From contig CAMDFN010000009.1 of NCBI GenBank assembly GCA_945897565.1, positions 21,484-85,483 on the forward strand: DNA of 64,000 nt, read 5' to 3'. Positions 13,181 to 29,320 of this stretch are shown one piece after another. Numbering within the stretch: position 1 is the first letter of the stretch; each line of letters starts with the position of its first letter. This DNA comes from Chryseobacterium gleum. GTDB lineage: Bacteria > Bacteroidota > Bacteroidia > Flavobacteriales_D > Crocinitomicaceae. Under the pieces are notes generated by a model. The model was not told the origin of the DNA. It searched no databases and saw only the letters and a list, made by a program, of their open reading frames with translations. A program made the translations under genes and the position numbers.

Positions 13181-15025
13181 ATGTGCGGAATCGTTGCATA
13201 CATAGGCAAAAATGAGGCCTATCCAGTGGTCATCAAAGGACTCAAAAGATTAGAATACCGAGGCTACGACAGCGCTGGTATTGCCTTGCATCAAAATGGC
13301 GCGCTCTCCATCTACAAGCGCGTCGGAAAAGTAAGCAATCTCGAAGATTTTGCCGCTACCCAAGACCTCAGCGGTCATGCTGCAATTGGCCACACCCGCT
13401 GGGCCACCCACGGAGAACCCTCCGATGTCAATTCACATCCGCACACCTCAATGGATGGCAAAATTGCGCTTATCCACAACGGCATTATCGAAAACTACGA
13501 TGTACTCAAACAAGAATTGGTCAAAAACGGCTATATTTTTAAAAGTGCAACCGACACAGAAGTAGTAGTTCATTTAGTAGACTACATTCAAAAGAAAGAA
13601 AACGTTTGGTTTGGCGAGGCTTTGCGCTTGGCATTGAACCACGTTGTAGGGGCTTACGCTATTGTAGCCATGTCTTCTGATTACCCGAATCGTTTGGTTG
13701 CTGCGCGCAAGAGCAGCCCGCTTGTAGTGGGTATCGGCAGCGATGGCGCTTATTATTGTGCCTCTGATGCCACGCCAATTGTAGAGTACACCAAAAAAGT
13801 AGTTTACCTCAACGACGAAGAAGTAGCCGTTATTGACCTAGAAAAAGGCCTCAAAATCTACGACATCGCCGACCAACAAAAAACACCATTTTTCCAAGAA
13901 CTCGAGCTCGAACTCGAGGCCCTAGAAAAAGGCGGATACGAGCATTTCATGCTCAAAGAAATCCACGAACAACCGCGTTCTATCCAAGACTGCTTCCGCG
14001 GCCGCCTCAATTCAGATGAAGCATGGGTTGCCCTCGGTGGTATCCGTGAATACGAGCAAAAAATGATTTCTGCCAACCGCCTCATTATTGTGGCCTGCGG
14101 TACTTCATGGCACGCTGGTTTGGTGGGTGAATACCTCATAGAAGACCTTGCCCGTATCAACGTAGAGGTAGAATATGCAAGTGAATTCCGTTACCGCAAT
14201 CCTATTCTTAGCGAGAACGACGTCGTTATTGCCATTTCTCAATCTGGCGAAACCGCAGACACCCTAGCAGCGCTTGAATTAGCAAAATCTAAGGGAGCCA
14301 CTATTTTGGGAATTTGCAATGTGGTTGGTTCTTCTATTGCCCGCATTACCGATGCAGGTTCTTATACGCACGCTGGCCCAGAAATTGGAGTAGCCTCAAC
14401 CAAAGCCTTTACTGCACAAGTAACGGTCCTGACTTTAATGGCACTGTCATTAGCTAAAAAGAAAGGCACTATTTCTGAGTCTAAATTCCGCCAACTTTTG
14501 GCTGAGCTCGAAGCCATTCCGGACAAAGTAAAACGCGTTCTCGAAACAGATGCTGACATTGAGAAGATCGCAGCTATCTATAAAGATGCGACCAATGCAC
14601 TTTATCTCGGACGCGGCAGTTCTTTCCCTGTTGCCCTAGAAGGCGCACTCAAACTCAAAGAAATTTCTTACATCCATGCCGAAGGCTATCCTGCTGCAGA
14701 AATGAAGCACGGTCCAATTGCCTTGATCGATGAAAACATGCCGATCATTGTCATTGCCACCCATGGAACCTCTTACGAAAAAGTCGTCTCTAACATCCAA
14801 GAGGTGAAGGCCCGCAAAGGAAAAGTCATTGCTATCGTAACCGAAGGCGACGAACAAGTCCGCAACATGGCTGACCACGTCATCGAAATCCCTGAAGTAG
14901 ACGAATTCTTGGTACCGCTATTAGCCACCATTCCCCTCCAGCTACTCTCTTACCACATCGCCGTCATGCGCGGTTGTAATGTAGACCAGCCAAGAAATTT
15001 GGCAAAAAGTGTTACGGTGGAGTAA
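13181..15025 (+). CDS. glmS: Glutamine--fructose-6-phosphate aminotransferase (isomerizing)
   Basis: 614 aa; MCGIVAYIGK N-terminal nucleophile, two SIS domains, C-terminus DQPRNLAKSVTVE. Confidence 0.99.
   Translation: MCGIVAYIGKNEAYPVVIKGLKRLEYRGYDSAGIALHQNGALSIYKRVGKVSNLEDFAATQDLSGHAAIGHTRWATHGEPSDVNSHPHTSMDGKIALIHNGIIENYDVLKQELVKNGYIFKSATDTEVVVHLVDYIQKKENVWFGEALRLALNHVVGAYAIVAMSSDYPNRLVAARKSSPLVVGIGSDGAYYCASDATPIVEYTKKVVYLNDEEVAVIDLEKGLKIYDIADQQKTPFFQELELELEALEKGGYEHFMLKEIHEQPRSIQDCFRGRLNSDEAWVALGGIREYEQKMISANRLIIVACGTSWHAGLVGEYLIEDLARINVEVEYASEFRYRNPILSENDVVIAISQSGETADTLAALELAKSKGATILGICNVVGSSIARITDAGSYTHAGPEIGVASTKAFTAQVTVLTLMALSLAKKKGTISESKFRQLLAELEAIPDKVKRVLETDADIEKIAAIYKDATNALYLGRGSSFPVALEGALKLKEISYIHAEGYPAAEMKHGPIALIDENMPIIVIATHGTSYEKVVSNIQEVKARKGKVIAIVTEGDEQVRNMADHVIEIPEVDEFLVPLLATIPLQLLSYHIAVMRGCNVDQPRNLAKSVTVE
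15013..15025 (+). repeat. Direct repeat TACGGTGGAGTAA, left copy (putative attL core within glmS 3' end)
   Basis: 13/13 identity to 18189-18201; covers the last codons and stop of glmS. Confidence 0.85.
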
Positions 15026-15363
15026 TCTGAACGGGTATTTGGTTGGTCTGTTAGTGTTTTCGATAGTTTCAGATGTTTTCTATGAGGGACGTTTTTGGAA
15101 ACAGTCCGTTTTACACCCTCATAAATCAATGGGATTTTAAGGAAAAGATGTAATTCATGAACCTTCTTATCTGTTTGATAGGATAAGGTAATGGACTGAA
15201 TAAAATGGGTTAGAACTTCCTTTTTCTGTTTGAATGAAAAGGACTTGTTTTTCGTTAACACCTTAGAAATCTCTAACATTGATTTATACCACTTATCCTT
15301 CTGATAATGAAAGGATAAAAGGTTTTTATTGTCTTCAATTTTTAGGGGTTGGCCGTTGCACAC
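15013..15363 (-). pseudogene. Serine site-specific recombinase, internal/C-terminal fragment (left part; runs through attL into antisense glmS, stop at 14950)
   Basis: KKEVLTHFIQSITLSYQTDKKVHELHLFLKIPLIYEG... resembles post-catalytic region of Bacteroidetes recombinase family proteins; then NTRSDYSTV|TLFAKFLGWSTLQPRMTAMW, which is the reverse complement of the glmS 3' end. Confidence 0.65.
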
Positions 15364-15499
15364 AGTTTTTCTGTCGGTGTCCGCCGTTATTGTACAGAAG
15401 TCGAGGAAGATAGTCGAATTAGTTAAAACGCTTGTTTTTGTATCAAATTATTGTTTACATTTGTGATATCAATATGATATCATTTAAATATTACTCATT

Positions 15500-16354
15500 A
15501 TGAAAACAGAAAAAACTATAACACCGTTAAATGGCTATTTGGTTGTCGTTATGCTATTAGTATTAGCAGCGTTAATTCTTTATGGCTTTATCTCTAATAA
15601 TATGATGTTGGGAGTTGCATCATTTCTAATATTTGTTCTTTTAACGAAGGGCTTTATTGTAGTAAGTCCGAACAGCTCAAAAGTATTATTGCTTTTCGGA
15701 GACTATAAAGGTAGTGTCAAACAAAGCGGCTTCTTTTGGATCAATCCGCTTTATAATAGCACAAGTTTGTCTTTACGAGCAAGAAACTTTGAGAGCGAAA
15801 AAATTAAGGTTAATGATAAAATGGGAAACCCAATTATGATTAGCGTTATTTTAGTTTGGAAAGTTAAAGACACATTTAAGGCTACTTTTGAAGTAGATAA
15901 TTACGAAAACTTTATAAGAATTCAAACGGATTCAGCAGTCAGGAAACTTGCGGGATCTTTTCCGTATGACCATTTTGAAGATGAGAAAGCAACAGTAACT
16001 TTAAGCACTAATTTTGATGATGTAAATAAAGCTCTTGAACACGAAGTAACTCAGCGATTAGAAATTGCAGGAATAGAAGTGGTAGAGTCGAGAATAGGAT
16101 ATTTAGCATACGCTCCTGAAATTGCACACTCAATGTTAAGGAGACAACAAGCGTCTGCTGTTGTTGCAGCCCGTCATAAAATTGTTGAAGGCGCTGTCGG
16201 CATGGTTGAAAGTGCTTTAAAACTTTTAGCAGATAAAGAAATTATTGAATTCGATGAAGATAGAAAAGCCGCAATGGTCAGCAATTTAATGGTTGTCCTT
16301 TGTGGTGATAGTGAAACGAAACCTGTAATAAATACAGGAACTTTAAATCAATAA
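15500..16354 (+). CDS. SPFH (stomatin/prohibitin/band 7) domain membrane protein
   Basis: 284 aa; two N-terminal TM stretches; GFIVVSPNSSKVLLLFGDYKGSVKQSGFFWINPLY, RRQQASAVVAARHKIVEGAVGMVESAL. Confidence 0.85.
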   Translation: MKTEKTITPLNGYLVVVMLLVLAALILYGFISNNMMLGVASFLIFVLLTKGFIVVSPNSSKVLLLFGDYKGSVKQSGFFWINPLYNSTSLSLRARNFESEKIKVNDKMGNPIMISVILVWKVKDTFKATFEVDNYENFIRIQTDSAVRKLAGSFPYDHFEDEKATVTLSTNFDDVNKALEHEVTQRLEIAGIEVVESRIGYLAYAPEIAHSMLRRQQASAVVAARHKIVEGAVGMVESALKLLADKEIIEFDEDRKAAMVSNLMVVLCGDSETKPVINTGTLNQ

Positions 16355-16357
16355 AGG

Positions 16358-16528
16358 ATGTCCGAAAAAAAGTCATTTGCATTAAGAATAGATTCAGAAA
16401 CAATGAAAGCCATTGAAAAATGGGCTGCTGATGAATTTCGTAGTGTCAATGGTCAAATTGAATGGATGCTTAATAACAGTCTTAAAGAAGCAAAAAGAAT
16501 TAAAGTAAAAACAATCCAAAAGAAATAG
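16358..16528 (+). CDS. Arc-like ribbon-helix-helix small protein (56 aa; absent from supplied ORF track)
   Basis: ATG...TAG: MSEKKSFALRIDSETMKAIEKWAADEFRSVNGQIEWMLNNSLKEAKRIKVKTIQKK; starts 4 nt after the SPFH stop codon. Confidence 0.8.
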   Translation: MSEKKSFALRIDSETMKAIEKWAADEFRSVNGQIEWMLNNSLKEAKRIKVKTIQKK

Positions 16529-16558: not shown

Positions 16559-16738
16559 TTATCCTACGGAATTTTCGTCAGCGGAAAGTCCGTCCAACGG
16601 CTTACCTATAACTATTATATCGGCTTGATATTCCCTTCCAAACCTTTGATCTGAACGTTTCTTTTTGGTATATATTGACCACGTATGTTTATGAGTAAAT
16701 CGATGATTTCGTGGAGTCTTATATCCCTTATCAATGAG
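16559..16738 (-). pseudogene. Serine recombinase C-terminal fragment (distal part, separated by cassette insertion; absent from ORF track)
   Basis: Minus strand reads LIDKGYKTPRNHRFTHKHTWSIYTKKKRSDQRFGREYQADIIVIGKPLDGLSADENSVG*; continues QISDY from 17955-18200 once 16739-17954 is removed. Confidence 0.7.
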
Positions 16739-16832
16739 TTATGTACAAGAGACTGAAATCACGCTCCGGTAAAGATAAATCGGGAAACCTAAAACCCAAC
16801 TTCTGCTTAAACTAAAAAGAAAAAAAAACAAA

Positions 16833-17729
16833 ATGAAATTACTATTAAACGTTATTATCTTTTTCACACTTTTTAATTCTCAAAATAGCCAATCTCAAAC
16901 AATTGATACTTTAGTTGAGGTTGGTAATCATAAATTGCATTTCAAGATTGTTAAAGGCAATGGTATTCCTATTCTTTTTGAATCAGGTGCTGGAGATGAT
17001 GGAACTGTCTGGAATTCTATCTTGGCCCCAATTGCTGAAATAACAGGTGCAACCTTGATTACGTATGACAGAGCAGGTTTTGGAAAAAGTACAATAAATA
17101 CTTTAGAAACTGATGAATCAAAACATGGAATAATAAATAGTGTTGAAGATTTAGAAGCAGGACTTAAAATATTGGGATATGACAAAGAAATTATCCTAGT
17201 TTCTCATTCCTATGGTGGACATTTATCTACATTATATTCGGTAAGACATCCTGATCTTGTAAAATCTATTGTATTAATCGATGTTACTCACAATTTTTAT
17301 TACATGAACGATTATTTTGAAAAAGAATCAAAGAAGGAAGAAAAGCATTTACCGGAAATGAAAAAAAATAATCTTGGATTTTATTATTTGGCTTTAAATT
17401 TTTCTGAAACAAGCAACATAATGGGCAAACTTACTATTCCTCAAAATATTCCTGTAGTAGATTTTGTTAATGAGATACATTTCTTTAAAGAAAAGGACAA
17501 GGTTGAATATTGGAAGGAATGCCATAAGAAATTTGTTGAAAGTCATCCAAATAGTATTGGAATAACAGCAAGCGGATGTCATCATTATATATGGCTTGAC
17601 AATCCAAATTTAATAATTACTACTGTTTCAAATAGTTACGCTGAAACTTTAGAAGAGAAACAAAAAAATGAAGTTTATCAAAGAGCATTAAATTATGCGA
17701 TAGCATCTTTAAATAAAGTTGACAAGTAA
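16833..17729 (+). CDS. Secreted alpha/beta hydrolase
   Basis: 298 aa; signal-peptide-like N-terminus; nucleophile elbow VSHSYGGH, GNGIPILFESGAGDDGTVW, oxyanion-hole region. Confidence 0.88.
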   Translation: MKLLLNVIIFFTLFNSQNSQSQTIDTLVEVGNHKLHFKIVKGNGIPILFESGAGDDGTVWNSILAPIAEITGATLITYDRAGFGKSTINTLETDESKHGIINSVEDLEAGLKILGYDKEIILVSHSYGGHLSTLYSVRHPDLVKSIVLIDVTHNFYYMNDYFEKESKKEEKHLPEMKKNNLGFYYLALNFSETSNIMGKLTIPQNIPVVDFVNEIHFFKEKDKVEYWKECHKKFVESHPNSIGITASGCHHYIWLDNPNLIITTVSNSYAETLEEKQKNEVYQRALNYAIASLNKVDK

Positions 17730-17817
17730 CATAGAAATGAAAAACGAAATTCTCGGATATCTAAAAATTGAATTCCAGAGACAAACATATACGTCTTGCT
17801 TTGTAGGTTACTTCCGA

Positions 17818-17954
17818 AGTCTCCTGTACATAACACACGCTAGGCAAAAAAGCCGAGATTTTGGTAACGAAAAATAATTAATTGAAAAACTTAAGATTTT
17901 GGATCGCAAATAAACCTAATTTTAAAATCGGCTTCTTCGCCTAGCGCGAAACCG
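17818..17954 (+). other. attC-like recombination site (folded-hairpin architecture)
   Basis: R''-like AGTCTCCTGTACATAAC (17818-17834) pairs 16/17 with cassette start GTTATGTACAAGAGACT (16738-16754); inner arms 17838-17862 and 17924-17946 form an imperfect stem with bulge; 3-nt and 7-nt unpaired spacers; ~61-nt loop. Confidence 0.6.
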
Positions 17955-18200
17955 ATAATCACTTATCTGTTTGAAGGTCATGTTCTGATTTTCGTATAAA
18001 TCAGATATAATGGAGAATAATTCCATCTGATAATCACTGTAGTGTGATAACCACAAGTTGGAAGAGGTGATCCTTACCTCCATGGTTAAAAAATAAGATC
18101 GATTATTATTTTTACCTTTGTTAGAAGTAATATTATTACCTATGACAGTATCAGTACACGGAGTATTAACCAATGTAGAGTTTTCCTCTACGGTGGAGTA
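17955..18200 (-). pseudogene. Serine recombinase C-terminal fragment (right part, starts at attR)
   Basis: Frame YSTVEENSTLVNTPCTDTVIGNN...MEVRITSSNLWLSHYSDYQMELFSIISDLYENQNMTFKQISDY. Confidence 0.65.
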
Positions 18201-18201
18201 A
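18189..18201 (+). repeat. Direct repeat TACGGTGGAGTAA, right copy (putative attR core)
   Basis: 13/13 identity to 15013-15025. Confidence 0.85.
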
Positions 18202-27639: not shown

Positions 27640-29320
27640 GTTACTTTACGCCCTCGCGCTCGTCGCATTGGCCTCTTGTAAAATGCAAGAAGCTGCTTCT
27701 CTGCATGATCCTGCCTATATACGGCAGTTTCATAGCGGTGTGCGCAACATGCTCAACGCACAAAATGAAGAGGCAATTCAAGCTTTTAAGGCATGTTTGC
27801 AAATACAACCCAAAGACGCCGCCGTACATTACGCGCTTTTTCAGGTATACCTCAAACAAGAACGCTATCAAGAAGCTGCTTTTCATACAGAACAAGCGGC
27901 GCAACTTGATCCCAAAAACCTGCATTACAAGCGCGAGTTGGCTTTTATGTACCAACAACTTGGCCGCAATAAAGAAGCGGCAGTTGTTTTTGAAGCCTTG
28001 TTAAAAGCTGATCCAAAAAACATCGATTATTATAGTGGCGCACTGAAGAGTTATGATGCACTTCAAACACCAAGTAAGTCCCTTGCCTTGATAGAAAAAA
28101 TGGAACAGCAACTTGGCGAAAACCCCAATACGGTCCTTGAAAAGTTTCGTTTGTTACAACAAATGGGCAAGGCAAAAGAAGGCGTTGCCGTACTCGAATC
28201 GGCAAGGCTGCGCTTCCCTACTGAACCAAGTATTCTTGCCAATTTAGTTGATCATTACTTCAGAGCTCAAAATTATACAGCTGGTTTTGGTTTGCTCAAA
28301 GACCTCGTGGAGGCCGACCCTCAAAATGGTGTTGCTCTATTGATGTACGGCGAAATGCTGTACCGTTCTGGCAAAGTGGAAGAAGGAAAGAAATACTTGC
28401 ATGAAGGCATCCTCGCGCAGGGCCCGAGCCTCGATCAAAAAATGAATATTTTGATCATGTTGGTCAACGAAAAAGAACAAACTTCCTTAGACCCTACATT
28501 GGAGCCGCTTATTCAGTACATGACCCAAACGTATCCGAACGAGGCCAAAGCACATTCTATTGCTGGCGATTACTATTACGTTTCTGGCCAAATCAAAGCC
28601 GCCATTGCCAGCTATCAGCAAACGCTGCGTTGCGATCCCAACTTATTTGCCGTTTGGAGTCAGGTCATGATTTTAGAATTCGAGCAAGAATCCTGGACCA
28701 ACCTGCTCAAAGATGCTTCAAGCTGTACGGAGTTGTTTCCAAGTCAACCTCTTCCTTTCTTTTTCAAGGCCATGATGCTCAATAGAAAAAGCATATATGC
28801 CGAAGCCTTAGAAAATCTTTCCCTTGCTAAAGGTGTGTTGCTCAACGACAACGCGCTTTTAGCTGAAATCTATTTAGCCGAAGGAAGCGCTCACTTAGGT
28901 TTGCAACAACAGCCACAAGCCTTCGCCGCGTTTAAAGAAGCCTTGAGCATTAGTTCAAATGACCTCGAATTGGAATATTTACACATCTTAGCGACCTACA
29001 AAATTGAGCTCTCAAAAACTACGCAGCGCTTACAAGATCTATCGTCAAAAACTGGTGCTCAACCAAAACTTATATTTGAAGTAGCCTTTGCTGCATTTCA
29101 AACAGGCACATACCAAATTGCCCTGCAAGAATTGCAAAAAATATCAGATGTCAAGCTGCTTCAGACGGCAGCTTATCAAGAGCTCCTCGGCGATATTTAC
29201 TTTCATTTAGGTCAAGCGCAAGAAGCCAACAATTGTTGGCAGCAAGCAATCACTTTTGGAGAGGGCAGCGTTGTACTCTTCGAGAAAACCACTAAAAAAA
29301 CATATGTTCAAGTTCCATAA
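27632..29320 (+). CDS. TPR repeat lipoprotein
   Basis: Start MNKLLYALALVALASCKM at 27632; multiple TPR motifs (AVHYALFQVYLKQERYQEAAFHTEQAAQLDPKN). Confidence 0.88.
   Translation: MNKLLYALALVALASCKMQEAASLHDPAYIRQFHSGVRNMLNAQNEEAIQAFKACLQIQPKDAAVHYALFQVYLKQERYQEAAFHTEQAAQLDPKNLHYKRELAFMYQQLGRNKEAAVVFEALLKADPKNIDYYSGALKSYDALQTPSKSLALIEKMEQQLGENPNTVLEKFRLLQQMGKAKEGVAVLESARLRFPTEPSILANLVDHYFRAQNYTAGFGLLKDLVEADPQNGVALLMYGEMLYRSGKVEEGKKYLHEGILAQGPSLDQKMNILIMLVNEKEQTSLDPTLEPLIQYMTQTYPNEAKAHSIAGDYYYVSGQIKAAIASYQQTLRCDPNLFAVWSQVMILEFEQESWTNLLKDASSCTELFPSQPLPFFFKAMMLNRKSIYAEALENLSLAKGVLLNDNALLAEIYLAEGSAHLGLQQQPQAFAAFKEALSISSNDLELEYLHILATYKIELSKTTQRLQDLSSKTGAQPKLIFEVAFAAFQTGTYQIALQELQKISDVKLLQTAAYQELLGDIYFHLGQAQEANNCWQQAITFGEGSVVLFEKTTKKTYVQVP

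Follow-up and report, generated by a model that had tools for sequence, protein, structure and literature searches.

Integrons are defined by an integrase with I2, which is held to be essential and necessary for the use of hairpin attC sites (PMC9668308, PMC4792948). In canonical integrons, such as those of IntI1 and VchIntIA and the sedentary chromosomal integrons, an integrase gene lies beside attI with a unidirectional array of mostly single-gene cassettes, and each attC is a hairpin with R and L stems that is crossed over after the G of G↓TT (the arrow marks the crossover throughout). Surveys have reported almost no integrons in Bacteroidetes, and IntegronFinder 2.0 names one complete example from this group, that of Salinibacter ruber (PMC9024848).

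Solitary attC sites without an integrase and insertions into attG sites have been described for canonical IntI, which puts cassettes into secondary GWT-type attG sites according to the passage of PMC12901181 that cites Loot et al. 2024. The locus described here, in a 64 kb stretch of DNA (the window), shares with these cases a single cassette, a single attC, no nearby integrase and a scarless GWT-type site, and differs from them in that its cassette type and probable enzyme are those of Bacteroidota. We consider it very probable that the insert at 16739-17954 is an integron-type cassette of a Bacteroidota integron-like system, with an integrase lacking I2, placed at a secondary, non-attI site. 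An earlier note, made from the sequence of the window, had also read the insert as an integron-type cassette; this is upheld overall, with the refinement that the system lies outside the canonical integrons. Stray cassettes at secondary sites were already known and, as far as the literature searched shows, it is the lineage that is new.

A scarless insert in a recombinase fragment at glmS

The insert is real and scarless, far beyond chance. Read directly on the plus strand, the left flank passes into the start of the insert as ...CTTATCAATGAG↓TTATGTACAAG... and the end of the insert into the right flank as ...CGCGAAACCG↓ATAATCACTTATC..., and excision of 16739-17954 rejoins ATGAG↓ATAATC. The left flank, ending ATCAATGAG, and the right flank, starting ATAATCACTTATC, then join into a minus-strand reading frame, restored as ...QISDY↓LIDKGYKTPRNHRFTHKHTWSIYTKKKRSD, just as the earlier note had claimed. 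The uninterrupted allele, which that note had proposed searching for, is present in one genome of the same genus (G198, locus L062; 83% over 371 nt) and one of the same family (G122, locus L063; 79% over 259 nt, gap-free). Both alignments cross the junction ungapped, the sole gap in the former being one 9-nt indel far from the junction. The ends of the insert can be placed only to within one G, which is what cleavage after G would produce. The insertion target is ATCAATGAG↓ATAATC, i.e. G↓AT, within the chromosomal stretch ATCAATGAGATAATC; together with the single complete cassette, the scarless insertion and the empty site in two relatives, this bears out the proposal of a secondary GWT-type site.

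The earlier note had placed the insert inside a recombinase gene, which holds with one correction: the host gene is itself a fragment, matching the serine-recombinase domain PF07508 (E=2.9e-4), in an element at glmS that had already decayed. This ~3.2-kb element is delimited by 13-bp direct repeats of the glmS end, which have exactly two copies in the window against 0 expected, and carries SPFH and Arc-like genes and recombinase remnants, among which the open reading frame entering the antisense of glmS is probably the remnant of a recombinase C-terminus. Parts of the same element family are also held by L062 and L063. The SPFH/Arc segment was considered as a second nested cassette and rejected: since no attC lies there and L063 has another gene at that place, it is taken as cargo of the glmS element. 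Its genes point in the same direction as the hydrolase gene and lie 0.3 kb upstream of it, so that the hydrolase gene could possibly be expressed by read-through. The features of the locus, and those of a further contig of the same genome that is discussed below, are collected in Table 1.

Table 1. Features of the insert, its surroundings and contig C46 (positions are those of the window unless prefixed L061)
Feature	Position	Strand	Basis
Insert, with crossovers at 16738/16739 and 17954/17955	16739..17954	+	
Cassette gene, secreted-type alpha/beta hydrolase, 298 aa	16833..17729	+	PF00561, E=5.7e-14
Cassette 5' arm, with the G of the other end GTTATGTACAaGAGACT; completes the R' arm once circular	16739..16755	+	inverted repeat
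R'' arm, ..CTCCTGTACATAAC, pairing with the start of its own cassette	17818..17834	+	inverted repeat, fold, pairing
attC-like site, R'' ACATAAC ... crossover G at 17954	17828..17960	+	covariance models R1, R2
L'' arm, CGCTAGGC	17838..17845	+	covarying stem
L' arm, GCCTAGCG	17939..17946	+	covarying stem
5' part of the interrupted PF07508 (serine-recombinase) fragment, ...MTFKQISDY	17955..18173	-	Pfam; homologues L062, L063
3' part of the interrupted fragment, LIDKGYKTPRNHRF...	16559..16738	-	frame restoration; Pfam; L062, L063
First copy of the direct repeat TACGGTGGAGTAA, at the stop of glmS; left boundary of the element	15013..15025	+	repeat count
Second repeat copy, right border of the enclosing element	18189..18201	+	repeat count
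SPFH/Band_7 protein gene, cargo of the glmS element, co-directional with the cassette gene	15500..16354	+	PF01145, E=5.9e-24
Small Arc-like DNA-binding protein gene	16358..16528	+	PF03869, E=0.0018, below cut-off
ORF entering the antisense of glmS	14950..15363	-	ORF list; no family match
C46 recombinase	L061:3242-4081	same as C46 attC sites	
ParDE-like cassette with attC	L061:4811-4941 (attC)	same as recombinase	covariance model
Second cassette with attC	L061:5646-5723 (attC)	same as recombinase	covariance model

Cassette anatomy and the attC-like hairpin

The anatomy of the insert supports a gene cassette, in which one alpha/beta-hydrolase gene is followed by an attC-like hairpin. The site scores 147 bits with R1 (by construction) and 133 bits with R2, the two covariance models introduced below, and is the only R2 site in the window. 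Its ACATAAC differs at one position from the canonical R'' motif RYYYAAC (the R' consensus being GTTRRRY). The 5' arm at 16735-16754 is 90% complementary to an internal stretch at 17818-17837, and 17838-17856 is 89% complementary to 17928-17946. The start of the insert therefore pairs with a stretch ~120 nt inside the 3' end and not with the end itself, an arrangement proper to a cassette whose mobile form is a circle. When the ends are joined (...GAAACCG↓TTATGTACAAGAGACT), the outer arm pairs at 16/17 bases, with A at 16748 in the 5' arm unpaired, and the circular form folds into an outer stem, an asymmetric spacer, an L stem and a variable loop. The fold of this circularised site has z=-6.2 against dinucleotide shuffles, with 0/200 shuffles as good, so the reconstructed circle that the earlier note had singled out for an attC search does contain an attC-type hairpin. 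An Rfam scan of the window gave no match and no attC family, and a search of plasmid DNA returned chance matches only.

Inverted repeats in a discrete, scarless-looking insert could also belong to an IS, a MITE-like element or a transposon remnant with a chance hydrolase and hairpin. The ends of the insert are not those of an IS or transposon, however: the insert has no transposase and no target duplication, its arms do not both lie at the termini, the partner on the 3' side sitting inside as described above, and homologous sites stand at each gene boundary of unidirectional arrays with a complementarity particular to each cassette. Such an element is extremely improbable as the source of the insert.

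A family of sites in Bacteroidota

A search of 240 genomes of the family with the window site recovered dozens of homologues, the best of which start at TAAC and stop at about GTTA, with several homologous sites 1-2 kb apart within one contig. Covariance model R1, made from 21 aligned sites and trained only on relatives of the window site, found attC-like sites in 78/240 of these genomes. Model R2, made from 42 sites, had matches in 89/393 Bacteroidota genomes and 51/180 genera and in 0/16 named genomes from other phyla, and three named Bacteroidota in the same control run gave 16, 14 and 2 sites.

The attC is an imperfect palindrome in which hairpin structure is kept above sequence. The consensus structure was written by hand and then tested by counting: in the 42-site alignment, 18/21 pairs have changed on both sides, with 88.9% paired, and these compensatory changes give a covariation of 0.364 against 0.130 when shuffled and <=0.093 when slid. 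That alignment was fitted to structure, and a more conservative estimate comes from the independent count on alignment A2, whose covariation score was reached in 1/500 shuffles. RNAalifold, applied to the raw alignment, recovered three pairs only. The motif GTTA...TAAC is kept across sites and the next three bases are free to vary.

Compared with canonical attC sites, those of Bacteroidota have a longer outer stem of ~14-16 bp, and their L stem carries symmetric mismatches rather than one-sided (extrahelical) bulges, one-sided columns being filled in 2% of the 42 sites. Symmetric mismatches would suit an enzyme that lacks the domain in which bulged bases are accommodated (PMC4792948). In alignment A3, the symmetric L-stem mismatches recur at columns 16/181, 19/178 and 22/174, three apart and mostly with A opposite C.

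Cassette arrays

The homologous sites stand at every gene boundary of unidirectional arrays, and the genes between them are unrelated; all sites lie on one strand in 22/22 multi-site loci. The earlier note had suggested looking for the cassette in arrays elsewhere, and arrays of homologous sites were found, but the hydrolase cassette itself was found in none of them, and its sole relative in the family (58%, G023) has no attC nearby. In cassettes that lie between two sites, the start is complementary to the R'' arm of that cassette and not to the arms of others: at positions 5-10, 4.37 of 6 bases match against 1.95 for mismatched cassettes, and the match is perfect in 20/60 array cassettes against 0.5%. 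Furthermore, the base 10 nt past the crossover is A and is never paired in 46/46 cassettes with clear ends, which were chosen without using the position of this A. It is a further difference from canonical attC sites, and the same unpaired A is present in the window cassette (GTTATGTACAaGAGACT vs GTTATGTACAgGAGACT). Many arrays have no integrase within the stretch fetched. Arrays from two genera (L223 and L230) share the near-palindromic target at which they end, TTAGACAG...TGACGTCAAACTGTCTAAAAACC, and this may be a favoured insertion site.

The array-associated integrase and its attI-like site

None of the genes in the 240 family genomes exceeds the IntI cut-off (TIGR02249). Forty of the best sub-threshold matches were taken regardless of attC and their surroundings fetched, and the sites around these recombinases lay downstream on the same strand in 24/24 cases, as did those found with R1 at E<=0.05 (12/12). 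Contig ends occur within 2 kb downstream of the gene in 22/40 cases and upstream in 5/40, an excess in keeping with assemblies that break at repeat arrays. Among 84,980 named genomes, a scan yielded 80 relatives; of the 46 sites near these, 43 follow the gene on its own strand, as in Arundinibacter roseus, Flavobacterium enshiense and Algoriphagus ornithinivorans, and two complete genomes (L239 and L242) have an integrase followed by an array. Beside 17 integrases, conservation extends to TATAAGTAAG↓TT and gives way to variable sequence beyond it, with AG↓TT in 17/17, and this conserved stretch has the form of an attI-like site with insertion fixed at G↓TT. From this association we infer that the array-associated integrase itself carries out the recombination.

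The integrase can be aligned with VchIntIA apart from ~41 residues around I2, so that query residues 180-202 span 179-243 of 2a3v, and it differs from canonical integrases in lacking this I2-bearing insert. The spacing from KG..R to HxLRH is 65-66 (few values 64-70) in the measured array-type integrases against 107 in IntI1, and the score is ~210 bits against an IntI cut-off of 265 and 507 for IntI1. The predicted fold of a related integrase has as its best solved match the integron integrase VchIntIA (2a3v). In a quick tree the array enzymes stand apart from IntI1 and IntI2; its deep forks are weak and therefore no ancestry is drawn. The Bacteroidota gene reads towards the cassettes, which is a difference from canonical integrons and is shared with the chromosomal integrons of Treponema (PMC3607928), the comparison with these being one of gene direction. 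In length and in the absence of I2, the enzymes also resemble XerA and archaeal Xer-like recombinases (NF040815), and some members pass the NF040815 cut-off. XerA resolves dimers, and no cassette arrays are known to be associated with it.

A cassette of a canonical integron could in principle have been inserted by an integrase with I2 that has since been lost, and the G↓AT target is in keeping with the GWT-type attG sites used by IntI (as given in the passage of PMC12901181 on Loot et al. 2024). This is very improbable given the result with the IntI cut-off in the 240 family genomes, the likeness of the attC to Bacteroidota arrays in sequence, long outer stem and unpaired A, and the 0 sites that the covariance model finds in a class 1 integron region.

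Some integrases of the family are longer (L180:9119-10858 and L096:8980-10407) and carry an extension at the N-terminus with a match to the HARP domain (PF07443), above cut-off in one protein, that of L180, where no attC was found; as a guess, such an extension might sense folded DNA. In L061 and L057, tandem ORF6N-domain genes (L061:2734-3237 and L057:10566-12094) immediately precede the integrase and are directed towards it.

An integrase and array in the same genome

The earlier note saw no integron integrase in the window and proposed acquisition in trans. The window indeed holds none, but an integron-like integrase is present on contig C46 (L061) of the same genome, so that an outside source is not needed. 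This contig carries, in order, the recombinase, an attI-like site (GGGTATAAGGTAG↓TT), a ParDE-like cassette with its attC, a second cassette with its attC and the start of a third, which recurs in an array of another genus (L048). The cassette starts match the R'' arms (GTTATGTGGG/CCCACATAAC; GTTATAGGGCaTTTAA). With a length of 5.9 kb and a draft genome as its source, C46 could have been binned wrongly. Against this, its integrase shares 78% identity with one from the same genus, and its attI sequence recurs in another genome of that genus (G157), where it heads an array.

Proposed mechanism of insertion

In the mechanism that we propose, a tyrosine recombinase that has an IntI/Xer fold and lacks I2 would excise cassettes as circles, in which the attC hairpin would form because the first ~16 bases of the cassette pair with its own R'' arm. 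The enzyme would join the folded attC, cut after G (G↓TT), to the attI beside its own gene (TATAAGTAAG↓TT). On rare occasions a chromosomal look-alike of attI would be used, here ATCAATGAG↓ATAATC in the decaying recombinase fragment at glmS. By eye, the target ATCAATGAG↓ATA and the attI TATAAGTAAG↓TTA are alike at 8/12 positions. Most likely, then, an excised cassette was joined through its folded attC to the chromosomal G↓AT by an IntI-like enzyme from this lineage. The C46 integrase would be the agent and the recombination single-stranded; these points, together with the source of the cassette and the direction of its transfer, we infer from the arrangement of the sequences.

The same cassette might instead have been inserted by chromosomal XerC/XerD or another tyrosine recombinase. 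Xer enzymes are without I2, the genome of the window encodes three more proteins with PF00589, and in the case of the CTX phage XerC is able to use a folded site. The attI-like junction and the arrays are nevertheless tied to the IntI-like gene and the target resembles that attI in the by-eye comparison above, which leaves a Xer-type agent improbable.

A probable separate integron lineage in Bacteroidota

It is likely, on present evidence, that Bacteroidota carry a widespread and separate integron lineage, in which a folded attC would be recombined without I2 by means of a long outer stem, an invariant unpaired A, symmetric mismatches and perhaps a HARP-like module in the longer enzymes, with stray cassettes such as that in the window showing insertion at chromosomal look-alikes. 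No description of a phylum-wide system with integrases lacking I2 was found in the literature searched, a search that was incomplete and hence no proof of priority. If the system functions in line with its anatomy, the capture of cassette genes would be common in a major phylum and would have been missed by detection that requires I2, and it would offer a natural test of how folded single-stranded DNA is handled by a tyrosine recombinase without I2. The system may also be mobile, as suggested by its setting on a Chryseobacterium oryzae plasmid (L236), which carries an integrase of the family at 14794-15837 and an attC-like site at 28804-28997, with IS91-type transposase and tyrosine recombinase pairs as neighbours.
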